Shown here: positions 9,187 to 57,127 of the stretch, one piece after another | Layout of the letters: every line of letters begins with the position of its first letter | Position numbering within the stretch: position 1 is the stretch's first letter | Assembly (NCBI RefSeq): GCF_023705585.1 | Contig: NZ_BOQE01000001.1 | Location: forward strand, 3,008,710 to 3,072,709 | Direction of reading: 5' to 3' | DNA: 64,000 nucleotides | Source of the DNA: Collibacillus ludicampi | Lineage (GTDB): Bacteria > Bacillota > Bacilli > Tumebacillales > BOQE01 | The notes under the pieces: model-generated | The model's input: only the letters and a program-made list of their open reading frames with translations | Told to the model about the DNA's origin: nothing | Database searches by the model: none | Position numbers and translations under genes: made by a program

Positions 9187-10302
9187 GTGCATGCGTTGCG
9201 AAGAGCGTTTTTCATTTTCGTGGTTCATAAAATCTGGGTGACTGCAGCCAGTTTTTATTTTGTTTCTCACTTACATCGAACGCACACATGGAAAGCGTTC
9301 GTCAAAGCATCGCTGATCAGCAATTTTGCAAAATGGGATTCTGTCTGGTACATCGGTATTGCCGCACACGGTTATACTAAAGTATCAGCCGCGTTCTTCC
9401 CGCTTTACCCGTTGACGATACGGGTCGGATCCGAGTGGTTAGGGATCAGTTATCGATCCTCCGGTTTACTGATCACGAACATCAGTCTTTTGCTCGCACT
9501 TTTTTTCTTGGTACGTTTGATCGATCTCGATTATGAAGAACCTGTTTCTTGGCGGGCGGGACTTCTCTTGGTCCTCTTTCCGACCGGGTTCTATCTGAGC
9601 TCTGTCTACACGGAAGCGATGTTTCTTATGTGGACGATCGGTTGCATGTATTATGCGCGAATGAATCAATGGTGGATGGCCGGCCTCTTCGGAATGTTCG
9701 CATCACTGACACGCAACACGGGGATCCTGATGCTGCTCCCCGTCGCGTATGAATATATGCGGCAAGCAGGCTGGAAACTCCGCAATATTCGTTTTCAAGC
9801 ATGCGCTATGGCGCTTATACCACTCGGACTTGGCCTGTATATGTTGCATCTTCTAAAACGCCTAGGTGATCCGCTTGCATTCGTCCATGCGCAACAGTAC
9901 TGGCACCGGGAGTTCCGATTTCCGTTGTCCACATGGTTTGAAGGGACTTATCACTTAACAGTTACGAAACGAAAAGGGTGGAGACTCATTTATCGATGGA
10001 TGAGTTGGCTGGCGGCCACTCTTGAACTCGCGGGAACGATCTTTTCCGTTGTACTGAAGATGCGTGGAAGCTATCTCGTTTATCTGATTCCTGCCGTCTT
10101 GATTCCTTTGATGTCTCCCAATGTGGCGGGGGAGGATTATTTCTATAGCATACCTAGATTTTTCTTGACCGTTTTCCCTTTATTCTTGACAGCGGCGATC
10201 CTGCTTGCTCGCAAGCTTTGCTTCATCGTCATACTCGTGTTGAGTGCATTGGGACAAGTGTATCTCATGTATCACATCACAGCAGGGCACTTCGTGTCCT
10301 GA
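9187..10302 (+). CDS. PIG-V-like mannosyltransferase (GT-C membrane enzyme)
   Basis: The 371-residue protein has about nine membrane segments. FAKWDSVWYIGIAAHGY near residue 55 is the PIG-V family signature with the catalytic aspartate in the first external loop. PLYPLTIRV and SLTRNTGILMLLP further on are also typical. PIG-V-like enzymes use a polyprenyl-phosphate sugar donor on the outer membrane face. The GTG start lies 9 nt after AGGAGGG. The next gene, 19 bp downstream, encodes the expected donor synthase, so the two form a pair. The acceptor is not known. Confidence 0.83.
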   Translation: MHALRRAFFIFVVHKIWVTAASFYFVSHLHRTHTWKAFVKASLISNFAKWDSVWYIGIAAHGYTKVSAAFFPLYPLTIRVGSEWLGISYRSSGLLITNISLLLALFFLVRLIDLDYEEPVSWRAGLLLVLFPTGFYLSSVYTEAMFLMWTIGCMYYARMNQWWMAGLFGMFASLTRNTGILMLLPVAYEYMRQAGWKLRNIRFQACAMALIPLGLGLYMLHLLKRLGDPLAFVHAQQYWHREFRFPLSTWFEGTYHLTVTKRKGWRLIYRWMSWLAATLELAGTIFSVVLKMRGSYLVYLIPAVLIPLMSPNVAGEDYFYSIPRFFLTVFPLFLTAAILLARKLCFIVILVLSALGQVYLMYHITAGHFVS

Positions 10303-10321
10303 ATGAAAGCGAGGGAGCGAT

Positions 10322-11422
10322 TTGCTGAGTATCATCATCCCGACGTTTAATGAATCACAAAATGTGCCTGTCATTATCCAACGTATCGATCAAACCCTCT
10401 CGGAGATCGTTCCCTATGAAGTCATCTTTGTGGATGACAGTACGGATGAAACTCCTCGTATCCTCGCGGACATGGCAAAAAAGAACCCGCATGTGCGCTT
10501 TTTTCATAGAAGCGGCGAACGGGGACTGGCGACTGCCGTAATGAAAGGGCTGGCAGAAGCGAGAGGAGACGTTCTCGCGGTGCTCGATGCCGATTTGCAA
10601 CATCCTCCTGAATTATTACCTGTTATGTTGAAAAAGATTGACTGCGGTTATGATCTTGTCATTCCCAGTCGGTTTGTTCCCGGTGGGAATGATGGGGGGC
10701 TATCCCCGTTTCGCAAACTCGTTTCCTGGGGGGCGCGTATGATCGGACGGGCGATGCTTTCGCGAGTACGCTCTTGCACAGACCCCACTGGCGGATACTT
10801 CATGTTGCGACGGTCTGTGATAGAAAATGTAGACTTGCATCCTCTTGGCTGGAAAATCCTCATGGAGATTCTCGTAAGGGGAAACTATAAGAAATTGGTG
10901 GAAATTCCCTATCAATTTCATCGAAGGCTAGGCGACCGTTCAAAAATGAACATACGTGAACAGGTGAATTACATAAGGCACGTCGCACGCTTGGTCAAAG
11001 CGAGCCCCGATGATTGGCGACTTCTTAAGTTTCTCATTGTAGGTTTGTCAGGTGTAGGCGTAAATCTGACGGTGTTTACATTTCTGTTGCATGTGCTGGA
11101 TCAAAGTGAAGTGACTTCGGCGACTGTAGCTGCTACTATCAGCATGCTGTCGAATTTTCTATTGCATGATCATTTCACGTGGAAAGGTATGGGGAAAGGG
11201 ATCAAGTTTGTTCGTTTGATCAAATTTGGGCTTGTGTCCAGTATCGGCATCATGATCCAAGTTGGAATCGTTTTTTTATGTATGGAATGGTGGGATTGGT
11301 ATTCCTTCATGGCGAATTTGGCGGGAATCGCAGGGGGGACCGTTTGGAATTATGTCGGAAACAATCGTTGGACATGGACCAACCATGAAAGATGGGCGGT
11401 TCTTGCAAAAATAAGAAAATAG
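10322..11422 (+). CDS. Polyprenyl-phosphate glycosyltransferase (DPM1-like GT2) fused to GtrA-like domain
   Basis: Residues 1-230 form a GT2 domain of the dolichyl-phosphate-mannose-synthase type: IIIPTFNESQNVP at the N-terminus, FVDDSTDET near residue 36, and the catalytic-site VLDADLQHPPELLP near residue 88. Residues 235-350 form a GtrA-like four-helix membrane domain (LLKFLIVGLSGVGVNLTVF, ending WNYVGNNRWTW). This fused layout is known for bacterial polyprenyl-phosphate mannose/glucose synthases. The start is TTG at 10322 after a GAGGGAG site. It most likely makes the lipid-linked sugar used by the PIG-V-like enzyme upstream. Confidence 0.88.
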   Translation: MLSIIIPTFNESQNVPVIIQRIDQTLSEIVPYEVIFVDDSTDETPRILADMAKKNPHVRFFHRSGERGLATAVMKGLAEARGDVLAVLDADLQHPPELLPVMLKKIDCGYDLVIPSRFVPGGNDGGLSPFRKLVSWGARMIGRAMLSRVRSCTDPTGGYFMLRRSVIENVDLHPLGWKILMEILVRGNYKKLVEIPYQFHRRLGDRSKMNIREQVNYIRHVARLVKASPDDWRLLKFLIVGLSGVGVNLTVFTFLLHVLDQSEVTSATVAATISMLSNFLLHDHFTWKGMGKGIKFVRLIKFGLVSSIGIMIQVGIVFLCMEWWDWYSFMANLAGIAGGTVWNYVGNNRWTWTNHERWAVLAKIRK

Positions 11423-11452: not shown

Positions 11453-11478
11453 TTTTTCAACAATAAATGAAATGTCAG

Positions 11479-11590
11479 TAGATCGCATGACTGGCGGAAG
11501 TGGATTCAACCACAAGGGAGTGCGATTGAATAGATTGGCCGACCGCCTGGGCCCCATGAGAGATTCATTATGGGCTCAGGCGGTTTTTCG
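11479..11590 (+). ncRNA. ZTP (pfl) riboswitch with terminator, controlling serA
   Basis: The leader contains the conserved pfl elements in order: a GATCGCA/TGCGATT closing helix (11481-11487 with 11521-11527), TGACTGGCG (11489-11497), GTGG...CCAC hairpin, CAAGGGAGTGCG and then GGCCGACCGCCTGGGC (11537-11552). The last segment also forms the 5' arm of an intrinsic terminator, CCGCCTGGGCCCCAT pairing with ATGGGCTCAGGCGG and followed by TTTTT. Known ZTP aptamers sense the folate-stress alarmone ZMP/ZTP, and ligand binding blocks terminator formation. The downstream gene serA feeds serine and one-carbon units, which suits this signal. Confidence 0.9.
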
Positions 11591-11680
11591 TATTGTGAAT
11601 GCTTGTTCCCTCTATCATTCTTTACTTGCAATTGAAGGTTAATCGTGCAAATATTTAATCTATACAGGAGGTATAAAACT

Positions 11681-14623: not shown

Positions 14624-15074
14624 TAAAGGGGCAAGAGGAGAGCGGGAAGATCTGTCCGCTCAAGTGATCCGGGAAATGGTTCAAGATATCGGCGGACAAG
14701 TCGTCGAATATGTCGTGGTTCCCGATGAATATTCTCTCATTAGTGAACATCTCACACGCCTGGTGGATGAACTTGGCCTCGACCTCATTCTTACGACCGG
14801 AGGAACCGGGCTTGGCCCAAGGGACGTGACTCCGGAAGCCACTCGTTCAGTGATCGACCGTGAAGTCCCAGGTTTGGCGGAAGCGATGCGGGCCATAACC
14901 ATGAAGAAGACCCCCCGGGCAATGCTATCCCGTTCATTGGCGGGAACGCGCGGACAATCCCTCATCATCAATCTGCCGGGCAGTCCGAAGGGCGTGCGTG
15001 AGTGCTTGGAAGCAGTTATCGATGTATTGCCGCATGCACTCGAAATTCTTCGAGGGGGTGGAGACCATCAGTAG
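14592..15074 (+). CDS. moaB: Molybdenum cofactor biosynthesis protein MoaB/Mog
   Basis: The 160-residue MoCF-binding-domain protein catalyses or assists molybdopterin adenylylation. Diagnostic stretches are [20 protein letters not shown] at the N-terminus, [19 protein letters not shown] near residue 70 and [13 protein letters not shown] near residue 132. The ATG at 14592 is preceded by GGGGAGAGGA within the end of moaC, so the two are translationally linked. Whether it acts as MoaB or MogA cannot be decided from sequence alone. Confidence 0.93.
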
Positions 15075-15426
15075 TGAACAAACGTTCAGGAAATATGAGT
15101 TTATAAAAGATGAACGGTTGGGTATTTCATTGCCCAAATTGTACAGTGAATGGAGTGAGCTCACAGAAGAGGAGCGACATGATATGATTCTGACGTGGGA
15201 AGCAATCCGCGGGCATATCCCCGACCGTATCAAAGAATTAGAGTCTCTTATTGACGAAAAGCAGGAGGAAGTCTTCCGGGAAGAAGACTGGGAGAGGATC
15301 TGTTCGTTATTTGCCGAGATCAACGACTATGCGGGCCGCATCAATGATTTAAATATATGGTCGCGCGTTCAACAGGATTTCGATACGGCCGATTTGGCAG
15401 ATGAGCATCTCAATCGGGAGAAATAA
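15058..15426 (+). CDS. Hypothetical soluble helical protein downstream of moaB
   Basis: The frame gives about 122 residues from a GTG at 15058 that overlaps the moaB end by 17 nt. The start is uncertain because no convincing ribosome site is visible. The product is acidic and mostly helical, with KLYSEWSELTEEERHDMILTW, ELESLIDEKQEEVF and AEINDYAGRINDLNIWSRV. There are no membrane segments or cysteine motifs beyond one Cys. The last gene of the moaC-moaB transcript, its role is unknown and nothing ties it to molybdopterin beyond position. Confidence 0.65.
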   Translation: METISSEQTFRKYEFIKDERLGISLPKLYSEWSELTEEERHDMILTWEAIRGHIPDRIKELESLIDEKQEEVFREEDWERICSLFAEINDYAGRINDLNIWSRVQQDFDTADLADEHLNREK

Positions 15427-15561: not shown

Positions 15562-15596
15562 GGGTTTGATCGTAACGATCGAACCCTCATTTTTTC
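15562..15596 (+). terminator. Terminator upstream of steA
   Basis: GGGTTTGATC-gtaac-GATCGAACCC forms a 10-bp stem with one G-U pair, followed by TCATTTTTT. It separates the moa transcript from steA. Confidence 0.8.
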
Positions 15597-15684: not shown

Positions 15685-16842
15685 TTGTCGTACTTACCGC
15701 GTGAGATCAGGAAAACGGGAGTGCGTGTGAGCGGGAAAGCCCGTTGTGATAAGAAAACCAAACGGCTGATTTCTCGCCTTCTCCCCGGTGAAATCGCGAT
15801 CATTGACCATCCCGATATCGATGAAATGGCGGCCGTTGGTCTGATCGAAGCAAAAGCATCAGCTGTTATCAATATTTCTCCATCCATGACCGGTCGATAC
15901 CAGAACCAAGGACCGATTCGATTGTTACAGGCGGGCATACCCGTGATCGATGTACAGGATGGGGAGCTCATGGTGAAGATCCGCGAAGAGCAATCGCTCA
16001 CGATCATCGATGGATGCATCTATATGGAGGGGATGTTGCTTACAGTAGGGGAATTGTTGACATATGAGAAAATCATGCAGTGCATGGCTGACGCGAAAAA
16101 AAATGCTCCTGACGAGTTGCAACGTTTTTTTGAAAACACGTTGTTTTACGCAAATAAGGAGAAAAACTTTTTTCTGGGTGATGTTCCCCGACTATCTTTA
16201 CGTACGAAGATCCAAGGGCGCCATGTCCTTGTCGTGGTACGAGGCTTGAACTATCGCGAAGATTTACGCGCCATCATGACTTATATTCATGAAGTTCAGC
16301 CTGTGCTGATCGGAGTTGACGGAGGGGCCGATGCCTTGATGCAAGCCGGGTTGCGCCCGCATCTGATCATCGGTGACATGGATTCTGTCAGCGATTCCGC
16401 CCTGCGCTCGGGGGCAGAAATCGTCGTCCATGCTTATCCGGACGGACATGCACCGGGCTTAGAAAGGATACAAAGGTTGGGACTGAAGGCGCACAGATAC
16501 CCGGCTCCGGGAACGAGTGAGGATATCGCCTTGTTACTCGCGTATGAAAACGGAGCTGACTTAATCGTAGCCGTCGGAACACATACACATATGGTCGATT
16601 TTTTGGAAAAAGGGCGAAAAGGAATGGCGAGCACGCTGTTAACGCGTCTGCGTGTGGGAGCGAAACTGGTGGATGCAAAAGGGGTCAGTCAATTGTACCA
16701 GAAGCGTCGGATCTCGTGGACCGCTTTAGTCATCGTTTGTACCGCTTCGATGATCCCGGTGGCCATGATCGCGGCGGTCAATCCGATTGTGCGGAACCTT
16801 TTGCGCATGTTTTATTGGCATGTACGTTTGTGGTTCGGTTAG
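15685..16842 (+). CDS. steA: Putative cytokinetic ring protein SteA
   Basis: The 385-residue protein matches the SteA family, a division factor characterised in corynebacteria. Its core resembles thiamin pyrophosphokinase: VLIGVDGGADALMQAGLRPHLIIGDMDSVSD near residues 211-240, then YPAPGTSEDIALLLAYE. An N-terminal domain with VGLIEAKASAVINISPSMTGRYQNQGP precedes it. One membrane helix (TALVIVCTASMIPVAMIAAV) near residue 355 anchors the C-terminus. The start is TTG at 15685 after GGGAAAGGAG. The stop overlaps the ribosome site of steB. It is first in a four-gene coupled operon. Confidence 0.85.
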   Translation: MSYLPREIRKTGVRVSGKARCDKKTKRLISRLLPGEIAIIDHPDIDEMAAVGLIEAKASAVINISPSMTGRYQNQGPIRLLQAGIPVIDVQDGELMVKIREEQSLTIIDGCIYMEGMLLTVGELLTYEKIMQCMADAKKNAPDELQRFFENTLFYANKEKNFFLGDVPRLSLRTKIQGRHVLVVVRGLNYREDLRAIMTYIHEVQPVLIGVDGGADALMQAGLRPHLIIGDMDSVSDSALRSGAEIVVHAYPDGHAPGLERIQRLGLKAHRYPAPGTSEDIALLLAYENGADLIVAVGTHTHMVDFLEKGRKGMASTLLTRLRVGAKLVDAKGVSQLYQKRRISWTALVIVCTASMIPVAMIAAVNPIVRNLLRMFYWHVRLWFG

Positions 16843-16853
16843 GAGGGGGCGAA

Positions 16854-17744
16854 ATGTACGGATTTCGCTATCATCTGGTTACGGTTGTGTCATTCTTTAT
16901 GGCACTGGGAATCGGATTACTGCTCGGAGGATCGATCGGACAGGACGTTTTTAGCAAACAGCAGGCACAGTTATTCAGCAAACTCGAAGAAAAATACGCA
17001 ACGGTGAAAGTTGAAAATAGCCGTTTGTCCAAAAAGGCGGAAGAATTGGCGAAACGAGAGAAAGAAGTCGAGAGCGCGTTGGCACAGATTGGATCCCATT
17101 CCGTGGAAGAACGCTTGCAAGGAAAAAAAATTGTACTGATAAATCTGAACCACTCGAATATCGACTTTCTCGTGCAGATTTTACATACGGCAGGCGCGGA
17201 GATTCAAGGAACGATCAGCGTAAAAGATCCTTCGGTGTTTACGCCTGGTAGCAGTAGCAAAGAATTCGTACAGGCTTTCGCGATCGATGACAACCCAAGA
17301 AATGTACAGGTGTTCGCACAGGCTGCGGAAACTTTGGCGAATGAACTTTGCGGGGAAACGGACGGGCATTGGATCGAAAACATGGTATCACATGGCTGGT
17401 TGGAACGATTCGGTACTTTCGGAACATCCCCGGATGCTGTCATCGTTGTCGGAGGGGCTACGCAAGAAACCCAGGGGCGTGTACGTGCGTTCGATATCCC
17501 ATTGATTCAAACGCTCTGCAGAAAAGGAGTGAAAATCATCGGCGTGGAGAGGGGAGACGCTCCCGTATCGACGTTAGACAGTTATGCGGAACAAGGAATC
17601 TCTACTGTCGATTCGGTGAACGAGACAATTGGCGGTGTGGCGCTCGTCGATGTGATTAATGGAGCGAAGGGACATTTCGGAGCAAGACGAACGGCGGAAA
17701 CCCTTCTGCCTGATGTTTCACAAAAAAGGGAGGCATTACGATGA
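16854..17744 (+). CDS. steB: SteB/MctB-like membrane protein (copper transporter MctB family, PF11382 type)
   Basis: The 296-residue protein opens MYGFRYHLVTVVSFFMALGIGLLLGGSIGQD, a single membrane anchor with the family's LGxGxLLGxxIG pattern, then a 50-residue coiled coil (residues 40-80) and a globular extracytoplasmic domain. This is the SteB/MctB build; in actinobacteria the protein pairs with SteA or affects outer-membrane copper. Here linkage to steA favours the SteB role in division or envelope assembly. It has an AGGAGGGGG site at 16841 and overlaps the next gene by 4 nt. Confidence 0.82.
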   Translation: MYGFRYHLVTVVSFFMALGIGLLLGGSIGQDVFSKQQAQLFSKLEEKYATVKVENSRLSKKAEELAKREKEVESALAQIGSHSVEERLQGKKIVLINLNHSNIDFLVQILHTAGAEIQGTISVKDPSVFTPGSSSKEFVQAFAIDDNPRNVQVFAQAAETLANELCGETDGHWIENMVSHGWLERFGTFGTSPDAVIVVGGATQETQGRVRAFDIPLIQTLCRKGVKIIGVERGDAPVSTLDSYAEQGISTVDSVNETIGGVALVDVINGAKGHFGARRTAETLLPDVSQKREALR

Positions 17745-18409
17745 GAGTGAGTGTATTGATTCCTGCCTTTAATGAAGGGGATCGCATTGGCCCAACCATT
17801 CGGGCGGCGCGAGCAGTGGATGAAGTAAGCGAAATTATCGTTGTGGATGATGGTTCTGCGGATGACACGGAAAAACAAGCACGCAAGGCGGGCGCACGGG
17901 TGATCCGTCATTCCCGCAATTACGGAAAGGGAGCCGCCTTGTATTCGGCGATCGGCGCTTCTACGGGAGACGTTCTTGTTTTCTTAGATGCCGATGTGGG
18001 GGAACATGCCACAGAGATCGTAAAATTAATCACTCCCATTGCACAAGGGCGCGCGGATATGACGATCGCGAAGTTCCCGGCTTCAGATGTTAAGAGCGGA
18101 TGGGGATGGGTGAAAGGGCTTGCAAAAAAAGGAATCTTTCATCTGGCATCGCTGGAAGTGGAAGCGCCCCTCTCAGGACAAAGGGCACTGCGGCGTGAAG
18201 TGCTTTCTGTTCTCGGTTCACTTTCGTCCGGGTACGGGGTAGAGGTCGGGATGACAATCGATGCAGCAAAAGGTGGATACCGCATCCTTGAAGTCCCTGT
18301 CGAAATGAAACATCGCGACTATGGGAGGAATTGGAGGGGTGTTCTTCATCGTGGACGGCAATTTTTGCATGTAGCAATCGCACTTGCGGAAAGGTGGGCT
18401 TTAAGATGA
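17741..18409 (+). CDS. GT2 family glycosyltransferase
   Basis: The 222-residue enzyme shows VSVLIPAFNEGDRIGPTIRA, IIVVDDGSADDT near residue 35 and VFLDADVGE near residue 79, the GT-A nucleotide-sugar site. It has no membrane segments. It looks like the short GT2 enzymes that transfer to lipid or small-molecule acceptors. ATGA overlaps at both ends couple it to steB and the membrane transferase downstream. Confidence 0.85.
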   Translation: MRVSVLIPAFNEGDRIGPTIRAARAVDEVSEIIVVDDGSADDTEKQARKAGARVIRHSRNYGKGAALYSAIGASTGDVLVFLDADVGEHATEIVKLITPIAQGRADMTIAKFPASDVKSGWGWVKGLAKKGIFHLASLEVEAPLSGQRALRREVLSVLGSLSSGYGVEVGMTIDAAKGGYRILEVPVEMKHRDYGRNWRGVLHRGRQFLHVAIALAERWALR

Positions 18410-19299
18410 CGGTTGTGCCCAACAAGGAGTTTACGCTGCTTGCCTTACTCGTATTCGGAATCGGTTATGGCATGACGCGCATGATGATCCCTTTCGCTCG
18501 TAAACGGTTTGTGCAAGCTGGATGGGTTCGTGAAAATTGGCAAAAGAAATCGATTCCCTCGGGAGTCGGTTTCGTTTGCGCCGTTCCATTTCTGCTTTTT
18601 GGAGTGCTGCTGATCCGTTTTAGTACCTACTTCCCCGTGATTCCTGTGAATGAATATTCGGCGCTTTTGATCTGGTCTTCAGGAATGACGCTGTTCGGCT
18701 GGTTGGATGATCGCTTCGGCACCCGAGATGTAGGGGGCTTCCTTGGCCATCTCCGCAAACTCATGATTGAAGGGGAAATGACGACAGGTTTGTTAAAAGC
18801 GATCGGAGGTGCAGCTCTATCGCTTGGAGTGGCCATCCTTTTAAACCGTGAAGGGTACGTCGTTCTGATCGACGGAATGACGATGGCATTGATGGCTAAC
18901 GCAATTAACTTGTTGGATGTAAAACCTGGACGGGCGATCAAAGGCGTTATCTTAGTTGGAATTTCCATATTGATCGTCAGCCGGTCTGTTGATATCCTGC
19001 TTCCGCTTTTGCTTCTATTTGGTGTGATTTTGGCTTTCTTCCCGGCCGATATGGCTGGCCAAGTGATGTTGGGTGATACAGGAGCCAATTTTCTCGGTGC
19101 TGTGCTAGGGTTTCTGCTGGTGCGCATGCTTGATGTTCCCGAAACCTGTATGTTACTTGCGGGATTGATGCTTTTCCACATCTATACGGAGTTTCATTCT
19201 CTTTCAGAACTTATAGAAAACAATCGGTTTCTGCGATGGCTCGATGAATGGGGGAGGGGACAGAGTGATCAAGAGAATGATGATCAGCAGGTAGCGTAA
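18406..19299 (+). CDS. MraY/WecA-like membrane glycosyl-1-phosphate transferase
   Basis: The 297-residue polytopic protein belongs to the glycosyltransferase 4 membrane family (MraY/WecA/TagO). Recognisable parts are GWLDDRFGTRDVGG near residue 104 (the DDxxG site), NAINLLDVKPGRAIKG near residue 165 and the magnesium-site QVMLGDTGANFLGAVLGF near residue 220. It lacks the C-terminal HHHFE of MraY, so it is not the peptidoglycan enzyme, which is at 38013. Being last in steA-steB-GT2, it likely starts a lipid-linked saccharide whose second sugar is added by the GT2. Confidence 0.82.
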   Translation: MTVVPNKEFTLLALLVFGIGYGMTRMMIPFARKRFVQAGWVRENWQKKSIPSGVGFVCAVPFLLFGVLLIRFSTYFPVIPVNEYSALLIWSSGMTLFGWLDDRFGTRDVGGFLGHLRKLMIEGEMTTGLLKAIGGAALSLGVAILLNREGYVVLIDGMTMALMANAINLLDVKPGRAIKGVILVGISILIVSRSVDILLPLLLLFGVILAFFPADMAGQVMLGDTGANFLGAVLGFLLVRMLDVPETCMLLAGLMLFHIYTEFHSLSELIENNRFLRWLDEWGRGQSDQENDDQQVA

Positions 19300-19435: not shown

Positions 19436-19581
19436 TGAAAATGTGTAGTTTGGTGGGCGTATGCTTTGCGTTCTCGCTCCGTGGAGGTCGTCTCGCATGG
19501 AATCATAATCAAATGTTGCGAGACGACCTCCAAAGTCGCTGTCTCACGCAAAGCATTACGCCCACATAAAGACATTTTTCA
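19436..19581. repeat. Long palindromic element, copy B
   Basis: The best-preserved simple copy is 146 bp. It starts TGAAAATGTGTAGTTTGGTG and ends CATAAAGACATTTTTCA. Arms GTGGGCGTATGCTTTGCG and CGCAAAGCATTACGCCCAC pair, as do GGAGGTCGTCTCGCA and TGCGAGACGACCTCC, around a loop of about 20 nt (TGGAATCATAATCAAATGT). The two ends differ (GTGTAGTTTGG versus GTCTTTATG) and so define an orientation. The 342-bp gap between the steA operon and the gene at 19642 holds this element and little else. Confidence 0.85.
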
Positions 19582-24968: not shown

Positions 24969-25221
24969 TGAAAAGTGTCTTTGGGTGGGCGTAATGCTTT
25001 GCGTGAGACAGCGACTTTGGAGATCGTCTCGCTTCCTTTCGGATGTAAAAGGGTATATGCATTGCGCGTAATAGCGACTTTGAAGGTCGTCTCGCAACAT
25101 ATGATTATGATTCCATGCGAGACGACCTTCACGGAGCATAAGCGCAATGCATATACCCGCTGAAACGATCTCCACGGAGCACGAACGCAAAGCATACGCC
25201 CGCCAAACTACACATTTTTCA
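24969..25221. repeat. Long palindromic element, copy C (outer, in reverse orientation to B)
   Basis: The outer palindrome begins TGAAAAGTGTCTTTGGGTGG and ends CCAAACTACACATTTTTCA, the same two ends as copy B but swapped. Arms GTGGGCGTAATGCTTTGCG and CGCAAAGCATACGCCCGC pair, then GGAGATCGTCTCG and CGATCTCC. Its loop holds a whole second palindrome (25051-25158). The element splits the yngF-type and yngE-type genes of one operon. Confidence 0.85.
25051..25158. repeat. Inner palindrome nested in copy C
   Basis: GGGTATATGCATTGCGC and GCGCAATGCATATACCC are perfect outer arms, while AAGGTCGTCTCGCA and TGCGAGACGACCTT are the family core. The loop ACATATGATTATGATTCCA matches the loop of copy B read in reverse (ACATTTGATTATGATTCCA). 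Outer arm sequences differ from other copies yet still pair, so pairing rather than sequence is conserved. Confidence 0.85.
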
Positions 25222-37990: not shown

Positions 37991-38012
37991 AACGTCTTGA
38001 GGAGGACCTTTG

Positions 38013-52581: not shown

Positions 52582-52700
52582 TATACGAAGGCGTATGCTT
52601 TGTGTAAACGAGCGACCCTGGAATTCGTCATGTATCTTAGGCAGAATTCAAGGAGACGATCTCCAGGGAACACGAACGCGAAGTATACGCCGTTTGTATA
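52582..52700. repeat. Long palindromic element, copy D
   Basis: TATACGAAGGCGTATGCTTT and its partner AAGTATACGCCGTTTGTATA close the element; inner segments GACCCTGGAATTCGTC and GACGATCTCCAGGG pair. The half with CACGAACGCG and CTCCAGGG matches the GTGTAG-type end of B and C. The outer TGAAAAATGT tips are lost. It lies between ylmC and pgeF. Confidence 0.75.
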
Positions 52701-56667: not shown

Positions 56668-56946
56668 ACCTGAAGGATAAAGACGATGAATGGACCAGTA
56701 CTGATGATCTGCTTTTACAGCGAACCGGAGAGGGTGCGAGCCGGGAAAGCGGACATTCAGGAAGATCAGCCATGAGTCGCTAGCTGAACCTCACTTTCGC
56801 CCGGATGTGAACAGTAAGCCAAGCCGGTTCGGCCCGTTATCGCCGTAAGAGTGGCCGTGTGCGCATATTTTGTTCATGCGGCAATTAGGGTGGTACCACG
56901 GGAATAGAACCTCTCGTCCCTTCATTAGGGATGAGAGGTTTTTTAA
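56668..56946 (+). promoter_or_regulatory. T-box leader of ileS with terminator
   Basis: The T-box sequence AGGGTGGTACCACGG lies at 56887-56901; it pairs with the uncharged tRNA acceptor end through TGG. Upstream, AAAGACGATGAA and ACCAGTACTG mark stem I, and GAGAGGGTGCGAGCC is the usual apical part. A likely specifier is ATC at about 56764-56766, fitting isoleucine. The terminator is CCTCTCGTCCCT-tcatt-AGGGATGAGAGG (56910-56938) plus six Ts. The 591-bp gap between divIVA and ileS holds only this leader and its promoter. Confidence 0.92.
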
Positions 56947-57127
56947 CGTGCAGGAGAGTATACCATGTGGTATACATGTATCCGCATAGTATACTTTCAC
57001 TTCGGGGGAAATAAGCTTCCGTGAGGATGCTTTTCGCTTCGTTGAACGAGCTTTCAAACTTTTTTACTCGTATTCGGATATGGGATGAAAGATTTGGACG
57101 AAATCTGTGGATTCAAGGAGGATCAAT

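Follow-up and report, generated by a model that had tools for sequence, protein, structure and literature searches.

A steA-steB operon that continues with a GT2 glycosyltransferase and a PNPT-fold protein, and decay of the SteA site where PNPT is absent

Introduction

The SteA-SteB pair helps mycobacteria and their kin to separate after division. Here, we describe a 64-kb stretch of the Collibacillus ludicampi genome (the window, C1:3008710-3072709 of the source genome), in which steA and steB are followed by genes for a GT2 glycosyltransferase and for a membrane protein of the PNPT superfamily, the four + strand open reading frames forming one tight operon at 15685-19299 of the window. SteA and PNPT occur together across genomes, and in the lineages examined that have no PNPT the SteA site is decayed. 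We favour, though with some reserve, the reading that SteA-SteB-GT2-PNPT is an ancient Gram-positive module in which SteA depends on a nucleotide and serves a pathway for a lipid-linked glycan, with SteB as the arm that reaches to wall hydrolases.

According to the accessible text of PMC12977500 (mBio 2026), CgSteA is stabilised by GDP or UDP, and SteB holds RipA; a CstII-type sialyltransferase is also named there. SteAB is described as largely restricted to Actinobacteria; here, a search of 299 genomes of the window's phylum, its own among them, gave SteA in 188. The same article mentions Bacillota steAB beside spo0A, and the word 'glycosyltransferase' does not occur in its main text. A PNPT or GT2 partner of SteA is not mentioned in the accessible text of PMC12977500, PMC6705760 or PMC12338722. 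SteAB, and steAB beside spo0A, are thus already known; for a PNPT/GT2 module with SteA, or for its co-decay, we found no prior report among the titles and abstract openings listed.

Results

The steA operon

The first frame (15685-16842, +, 385 amino acids, TTG start) is by its sequence certainly SteA: it matches NF040608, 'putative cytokinetic ring protein SteA', with 501.5 bits (cut-off 150) over profile positions 1-368 of 369, and the predicted fold described below agrees. SteB (16854-17744, +, 296 amino acids) starts 11 nt further on and belongs to the MctB family, matching PF11382 with 125.4 bits over positions 1-306 and carrying an N-terminal transmembrane helix at 8-26 by hydropathy. 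GT2 (17741-18409, +, 222 amino acids; PF00535 and PDB matches) and PNPT (18406-19299, +, 297 amino acids; PF00953 match and predicted MraY/WecA/DPAGT1 fold) follow, with ATGA overlaps at the SteB/GT2 and GT2/PNPT junctions. The start of PNPT was taken as the ATG at 18406; the longest frame would open at TTG 18331. A first-pass annotation of this DNA had all four genes overlapping or touching, which is right for the two ATGA junctions but not for SteA and SteB. Its central observation, that a GT2 and an MraY/WecA-like protein accompany SteA/SteB outside the Actinobacteria, is borne out by the profile matches and by the survey of loci that follows.

Gene order across genomes

SteA scored above cut-off in 33 of 61 genomes of relatives (own included). 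We surveyed 92 steA loci, comprising the window, 32 loci of relatives and 59 from the phylum set, which were chosen, mostly one per family, among the matches listed (weaker matches excluded). The labels Bacillota, Actinomycetota and Mycobacteriales were assigned from named loci and from the match to 9hmy. PNPT lay 3' of SteA in 91 of the 92 loci, the remaining one (L018) being cut by the contig end; all but L128 and L140 had GT2 (90 loci), and 77 had SteB. All four genes were found in 73 loci and, with broken SteA and PNPT frames, in one more (L063). The rest were SteA-GT2-PNPT (15), SteA-SteB-PNPT (2, the two loci without GT2) and SteA-SteB-GT2 at a contig end (L018). Within the 32 loci of relatives, GT2 came after SteA in every case and PNPT in 31, again with L018 at its contig end, while SteB was missing from 8. 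Among the neighbours of SteA, PNPT is the most constant and SteB the least.

A collection of 80 named loci partly overlaps with the survey, so the two were not summed. All four genes were found in 60 of them, and seven, all actinobacteria by title (Yinghuangia, Frankiaceae, Herbidospora, Blastococcus, Geodermatophilus, Tetrasphaera and Actinomadura), had SteA-SteB-PNPT. A further nine showed SteA-SteB (7), SteA alone (1) or SteA-SteB-GT2 (1), and all nine contigs end within 1.5 kb of SteA. The others were SteA-GT2-PNPT (2), L198 with a long GT2 frame 5' of SteB, and L237 with GT2 on the opposite strand and no PNPT within the stretch. The first-pass annotation had let its case hinge in part on conservation of gene order beyond this strain, and the order is conserved in the survey, in the named loci and in the search of 299 genomes. 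Behind the module, no conserved gene was dominant in the window's phylum (DUF3866 in 19 of 108 picked open reading frames; neighbours were picked by a longest-frame rule, at most two per locus, and those of at least 700 amino acids were dropped).

Co-occurrence of SteA and PNPT

To find PNPT we used a profile, A5, built from 26 PNPTs, which separates the PNPT clade from MraY/WecA. In eight actinobacterial genomes its best match scored 134-294 bits and other places 23-33 bits, with the exception of a second piece of the same PNPT gene in G357 (80 bits). Across the 299 phylum genomes A5 found PNPT in 187 (E 1e-20 or better); SteA and PNPT were both present in 186, SteA only in 2, PNPT only in 1 and neither in 110. 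In both SteA-only genomes the contig ends 0.6-1 kb behind SteA, and PNPT was not found elsewhere in them. Among 149 Actinomycetota genomes, SteA was found in 70 and PNPT in 66 (E 1e-15 or better), both in 64, SteA only in 6, PNPT only in 2 and neither in 77. In two of these six SteA-only genomes (G484, G495) a contig ends near SteA, and the other four (G396, G408, G432, G454) belong to the order of G432. Where both were present, they shared one contig in 59 of 64 genomes, PNPT always on the same strand and downstream, at less than 3 kb in 38, 3-9 kb in 19 and further in 2; in the other five they lay on different contigs. Because the genomes are related, we lay weight on these counts rather than on Fisher values.

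The two PNPT relatives found without SteA (L276:5328-6107 and L277:5807-6556) come from large actinobacterial genomes and adjoin a GT4. Both retain DD, D171 and GD but differ at N165, R173 and K179, and L276 differs at R176 as well.

Fold and putative site of SteA

SteA has a swivel-like N-terminal domain (about 12-118), a C-terminal domain like those of thiamine pyrophosphokinase (TPK) and HPPK (about 158-338) and a single C-terminal transmembrane helix (about 345-365; 347-365 by hydropathy); a Pfam scan also gave matches to TPK_catalytic and SteA-like_C. The AlphaFold2 model (pLDDT 91.7, pTM 0.80) is closest to two SteA structures, 9hmy (Z 29.8) and 9hmz (Z 28.4), and, as in MtSteA, the swivel-like domain and the C-terminal helix are both present. 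The rmsd of 13.5 in the match to 9hmy suggests that the N-terminal domain is placed differently in the model. Next came archaeal HPPK 8sd5 (Z 14.3, rmsd 3.2 over 161 residues), TPK 3mel (Z 11.2) and the Maf glycosyltransferase 5mu5 (Z 10.1), and residues 4-132 matched swivel-type domains at Z about 10. A CstII-type sialyltransferase was absent among the fold matches listed; Maf and ST6GAL1 were present. Identity as a TPK was rejected, TIGR01378 giving 37.4 bits against a curated cut-off of 76.4. The C-terminal domain, with its active-site-like pocket, carries DGGAD (212-216), GDMDS (230-234), H249 and SED (278-280).

Decay of the SteA site where PNPT is absent

Nine residues of the site were scored: D212, G213, D216, D231, D233, S234, H249, E279 and D280 (window numbering). 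Every locus scored kept all nine: 91 of 91 in the survey, the window itself and 80 of 80 among the named loci (the sets overlap). The order of G432 has SteA in 78 of 81 genomes and PNPT in 36 (at least 199 bits; a 28.6-bit match in G510 was not counted). There, SteA kept all nine residues in each of the 36 genomes with PNPT and in none of the 41 scorable genomes (of 42) without it, where two to eight remained.

The SteA tree comprised 115 rows and was calculated with the nine site columns removed under a quick LG+G4 model. Its sample is not random: from the order of G432 it takes all SteA genomes bar the fragment L363, and its 72 PNPT-positive rows include ten for comparison, namely eight rows from the window's phylum, the window among them, as well as L232 and L237, the latter scored PNPT-positive from the genome search. 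Long branches are flagged, including L274 with L384. The site was intact in 71 rows with PNPT and not intact in one (L274), and intact in none and not intact in 41 of the rows without PNPT. Decay accompanies PNPT absence in the pairs counted, and the tree is silent on gain versus loss. One PNPT-negative case (L336/L361) is nested inside a PNPT-positive clade and has a decayed SteA site, a second natural experiment.

At 58 positions SteA is at least 95% conserved in both PNPT-positive sets (92 and 62 rows). In the 41 PNPT-negative rows, 21 of these stay at least 95% conserved and 16 drop below 50%, including K26 and H42 of the N-terminal domain and R186, D233, S234, H249, H300 and K309 of the C-terminal one. 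Because 21 conserved positions persist, we argue for a lost site, rather than a general rate increase alone, as the probable cause of the SteA losses.

To a more specific reading we give clearly less credence than to the one we favour. SteA might be an enzyme and more than a division factor, namely a two-domain nucleotide-dependent transferase (pyrophosphoryl or glycosyl) of a lipid-linked glycan pathway common to Bacillota and Actinomycetota, its site built by the TPK-like domain and by K26 and H42 of a moving N-terminal domain. Mycobacterial SteA would be a dead, reused form, left behind once PNPT and the glycan genes had vanished between steB and pyrG.

SteB and the membrane anchor

All 77 loci with SteB encode a SteA that has the C-terminal transmembrane helix, compared with 8 of the 15 that have no SteB at the locus; the seven SteA proteins lacking the helix all lack SteB nearby and all keep PNPT and GT2. 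The anchor of SteA thus goes with SteB and its pocket with PNPT. In SteB itself, the charged stretch after the transmembrane helix is likely a coiled coil, and the part behind it would by analogy with MtSteB form a domain on the outside. NlpC/P60 matches occur at nine places in the genome; of eight such loci, six gave frames (L032 and L037 gave none), and inspection of these by eye pointed to no partner of SteB. Copper transport was dropped as a role for SteB, the accessible text of PMC12977500 arguing against it for MtSteB.

Actinobacterial clusters

In 20 actinobacterial loci SteA and PNPT both lay in the stretch examined. A MurJ family member was present in 12 and GT2 in 7, never together, with neither in L274; GT4 was found in 14 and PyrG in 16. 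The MurJ labels come from Pfam for L230, L239 and L268 and the GT4 labels from Pfam for L239, L266 and L268, elsewhere from phmmer, and frames overlap in GC-rich stretches. For the frames behind PNPT in L235, L241 and L215, Pfam gave no family, and phmmer showed MurJ-like frames in these places. Nine of the 20 loci encode a protein resembling three membrane proteins of 730-755 amino acids (L266:5813-8044, L268:6764-8953, L271:7312-9576), which show 9-11 hydrophobic segments and a putative AlkP-like domain on the outside; neither of two scanned matched Pfam or NCBIfam.

L278-L280 have the order SteA-SteB-PyrG, which we take to be that of M. tuberculosis, and L281 has SteA and PyrG with no SteB match. 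This mycobacterial order is without PNPT. Against the M. tuberculosis SteA structure 9hmy, SteA of L279 scores 606 bits and that of the window 234 bits.

GT2 and PNPT

GT2 matches PF00535 with 98 bits, has DxD-type residues D83/D85, and no transmembrane helix was found in it by hydropathy. Its closest solved structures are GpgS and then dolichol monophosphate mannose synthase; it stays below the curated equivalog cut-offs (PpgS 75.3 versus 370 bits, AglJ 98.3 versus 325 bits).

PNPT matches PF00953 weakly (30.2 bits, cut-off 27). Its AlphaFold2 model (pLDDT 94.0, pTM 0.92) resembles DPAGT1 6bw6 (Z 23.4, rmsd 2.8, 250 residues) and MraY 9zno (Z 23.4, rmsd 3.5, 249 residues), the first match outside the MraY/WecA/DPAGT1 family following at Z 6.1. 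It keeps DD 101-102, K131, N168, D171 and GD 223-224 and, aligned with the MraY and the TagO-like protein of the same genome, to which it is 20-21% identical, also G98 and N165. By fold, profile, DD pair, NxxNxxD and GDxG it is a member of the PNPT superfamily. It is not MraY or WecA/TagO proper: it forms its own clade with the signature NLLDxRPGRAxK, DVKPGRA (DVKPGRAIK in the window) replaces DGxDG, and the His motif, HHH in the same-genome MraY and HTHH in the TagO-like protein, is missing. A role as sole MraY or TagO was rejected, as the genome has another gene, of mraY type, at 38010 and the TagO-like protein at C1:1985563. With the MraY/TagO His motif and the second DGxDG Asp missing, the substrate of PNPT is not readable from its sequence. 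The 'lipid-linked disaccharide' that, according to the first-pass annotation, PNPT and GT2 could build is a possible product.

The same losses raise the alternative of a PNPT that is related to MraY/WecA but catalytically dead, serving SteA as membrane sensor, scaffold or lipid handler in a module that senses the state of a lipid carrier or precursor and makes no glycan. Both missing elements are kept by the MraY and TagO-like protein of the same genome, and PNPT sits at the edge of PF00953, with none of two scanned actinobacterial PNPTs matching Pfam (E 1e-5) and none of three matching NCBIfam (E 0.01; one of them the SteA-less L276). Dead enzyme copies, however, usually lose their catalytic sites, whereas all 91 survey PNPTs retain D101, D102, K131, N168, D171, P174 and R176, and 89 of them D224; GT2, GT4 and MurJ as neighbours suit a biosynthetic pathway. 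We regard a dead PNPT as unlikely.

Genomic surroundings and sporulation

Gene neighbourhood alone might result from a frozen ancestral operon, in which the genes are co-transcribed but SteAB, in division, and GT2/PNPT, in glycan synthesis, act apart. Neighbours do persist without clear functional ties, and steA keeps company with spo0A and spoIVB (Spo0A_C in 38 and SpoIVB peptidase in 40 of 110 upstream open reading frames around the 59 phylum loci) as well as with pyrG in the actinobacterial clusters. The module nevertheless stays intact in differing surroundings (moaC/mog here, spo0A or pyrG elsewhere) and survives the absence of SteB, and PNPT tracks SteA genome-wide together with the integrity of its site. 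Such a frozen operon is therefore, in our judgement, decidedly improbable.

Spo0A was found in 257 of the 299 phylum genomes, in 186 of 188 with SteA versus 71 of 111 without, so that SteA is nearly confined to Spo0A bearers in the window's phylum. The genome of the window has Spo0A, although far from steA (C1:73038 versus 3024436). Actinomycetota are not known to use Spo0A. Because many Spo0A bearers have no SteA and Actinomycetota have it, the module is no general sporulation requirement. The first-pass annotation had suggested a septal or envelope glycan step in a spore former; the host does have Spo0A, but the SteA-PNPT link is not confined to spore formers. That the module serves sporulation only, as this suggestion, the spo0A remark in the accessible text of PMC12977500 and the loci close to spo0A/spoIVB might lead one to think, is very unlikely given the 71 Spo0A bearers without SteA, the Actinomycetota modules and the distant spo0A here.

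Other features of the window

A terminator-like hairpin 5' of steA (15562-15586, +) is a possible operon boundary; the pattern scan gave 6 such sites in the window versus 4.4 in shuffles, so their number is no evidence. Between mog and steA lies a frame of 142 amino acids (14998-15426, +) with no above-cut-off match in Pfam and no match at all in NCBIfam. Located 4-6 kb 5' of steA, 9187-11422 (+) encodes a PIG-V-like mannosyltransferase (PF04188) together with a GT2 that carries a GtrA/DPMS membrane domain, a second lipid-sugar gene pair near steA. A ZMP/ZTP riboswitch (RF01750, 66.6 bits, 11477-11559, +) precedes the phosphoglycerate dehydrogenase gene serA at 11645, and a T-box leader (RF00230, 106.3 bits, 56677-56924, +) lies upstream of a 933-amino-acid frame at 57107. 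Palindromic MITE-like repeats at 19439-19579 and about 24980-25220 have GTGGGCGTATGCTTTGCG in common, which has three matches in the window at up to 3 mismatches (the third at 52587) versus 0.06 expected.

Discussion

The module is widely conserved, and the link between SteA and PNPT is strong. In the reading that we favour, PNPT would transfer a sugar phosphate from a nucleotide sugar to undecaprenyl phosphate and GT2 would glycosylate either the lipid or a lipid intermediate, giving a lipid-linked envelope glycan. SteA would be the cytosolic nucleotide-dependent partner, whose TPK/HPPK-like pocket works with PNPT, be it catalytically or by sensing UDP/GDP-type metabolites of the pathway. Its C-terminal helix would join SteB in the membrane, and SteB, reaching outside, would position an NlpC/P60 hydrolase, as shown for the M. 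tuberculosis and C. glutamicum proteins. Glycan supply could in this way be matched to wall cutting, with the septum as the probable place. In Mycobacteriales, the division pair known from the literature has the look of a reduced form, in which the SteB arm would have been kept and PNPT and much of the SteA site lost.

Several observations weigh against this reading. The lineages do not provide independent cases of co-occurrence and decay: on the tree, the distribution of PNPT requires three changes, of which starred branches force two, so that the pair test has n=2 and p=0.5. L274 (G478) has PNPT with seven of nine site residues. L282 and L283 (G484, G495) keep all nine without a PNPT match; they were not counted, SteA lying at a contig end, and at face value would be two exceptions to co-decay. 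The decay is also uneven, D280 remaining at 100%, D216 at 88%, E279 at 78%, D212 at 71% and D231 at 66% in the PNPT-negative rows. Two Actinomycetota have a PNPT relative with no SteA found (A5 136.6 and 163.5 bits), and GT2 is not universal, as the 7 of 20 actinobacterial loci show. PNPT, with P174 in place of the second Asp of DGxDG and no His motif, could be a non-enzyme. Finally, SteA (TapA) works without SteB (MctB) in mycobacteria, via MtrAB, according to the accessible text of a preprint (PMC12338722).

SteAB is followed as a mycobacterial drug-target candidate, and the question there is the ligand of the SteA pocket. If the pocket serves a lipid-linked glycan step, this ligand could be sought where the site is intact, in Bacillota and many Actinobacteria, and not where it has decayed. 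If true, the proposal would add a widespread unnamed envelope glycan pathway for many spore formers and actinobacteria, and a direct route tying precursor supply to wall cutting.

PNPT is like MraY, WecA/TagO and DPAGT1 in fold over about 250 residues, with DD, NxxNxxD and GDxG aligned, but has DxRPGRxxK for DGxDGLA and no His motif. GT2 has its best PDB and NCBIfam matches among GpgS/DPM1/AglJ-type enzymes, yet scores far under every curated NCBIfam cut-off. The C-terminal domain of SteA is akin to the TPK/HPPK/Maf fold group, its DGxA and GDxDS-type stretches aligning with HPPK and TPK, whereas the swivel-like N-terminal domain and the transmembrane helix are extra. Also close is the known SteA-SteB pair of cell-separation regulators (Rv1697-Rv1698/MctB; cgp_1603-1604 in C. 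glutamicum): the same two families stand in the same order, and the C-terminal transmembrane helix of SteA is encoded next to the N-terminal one of SteB, likewise here. However, 9hmy and 9hmz have partly lost the TPK/HPPK-like site, whereas SteA of the window keeps it, and here the operon continues with GT2 and PNPT.

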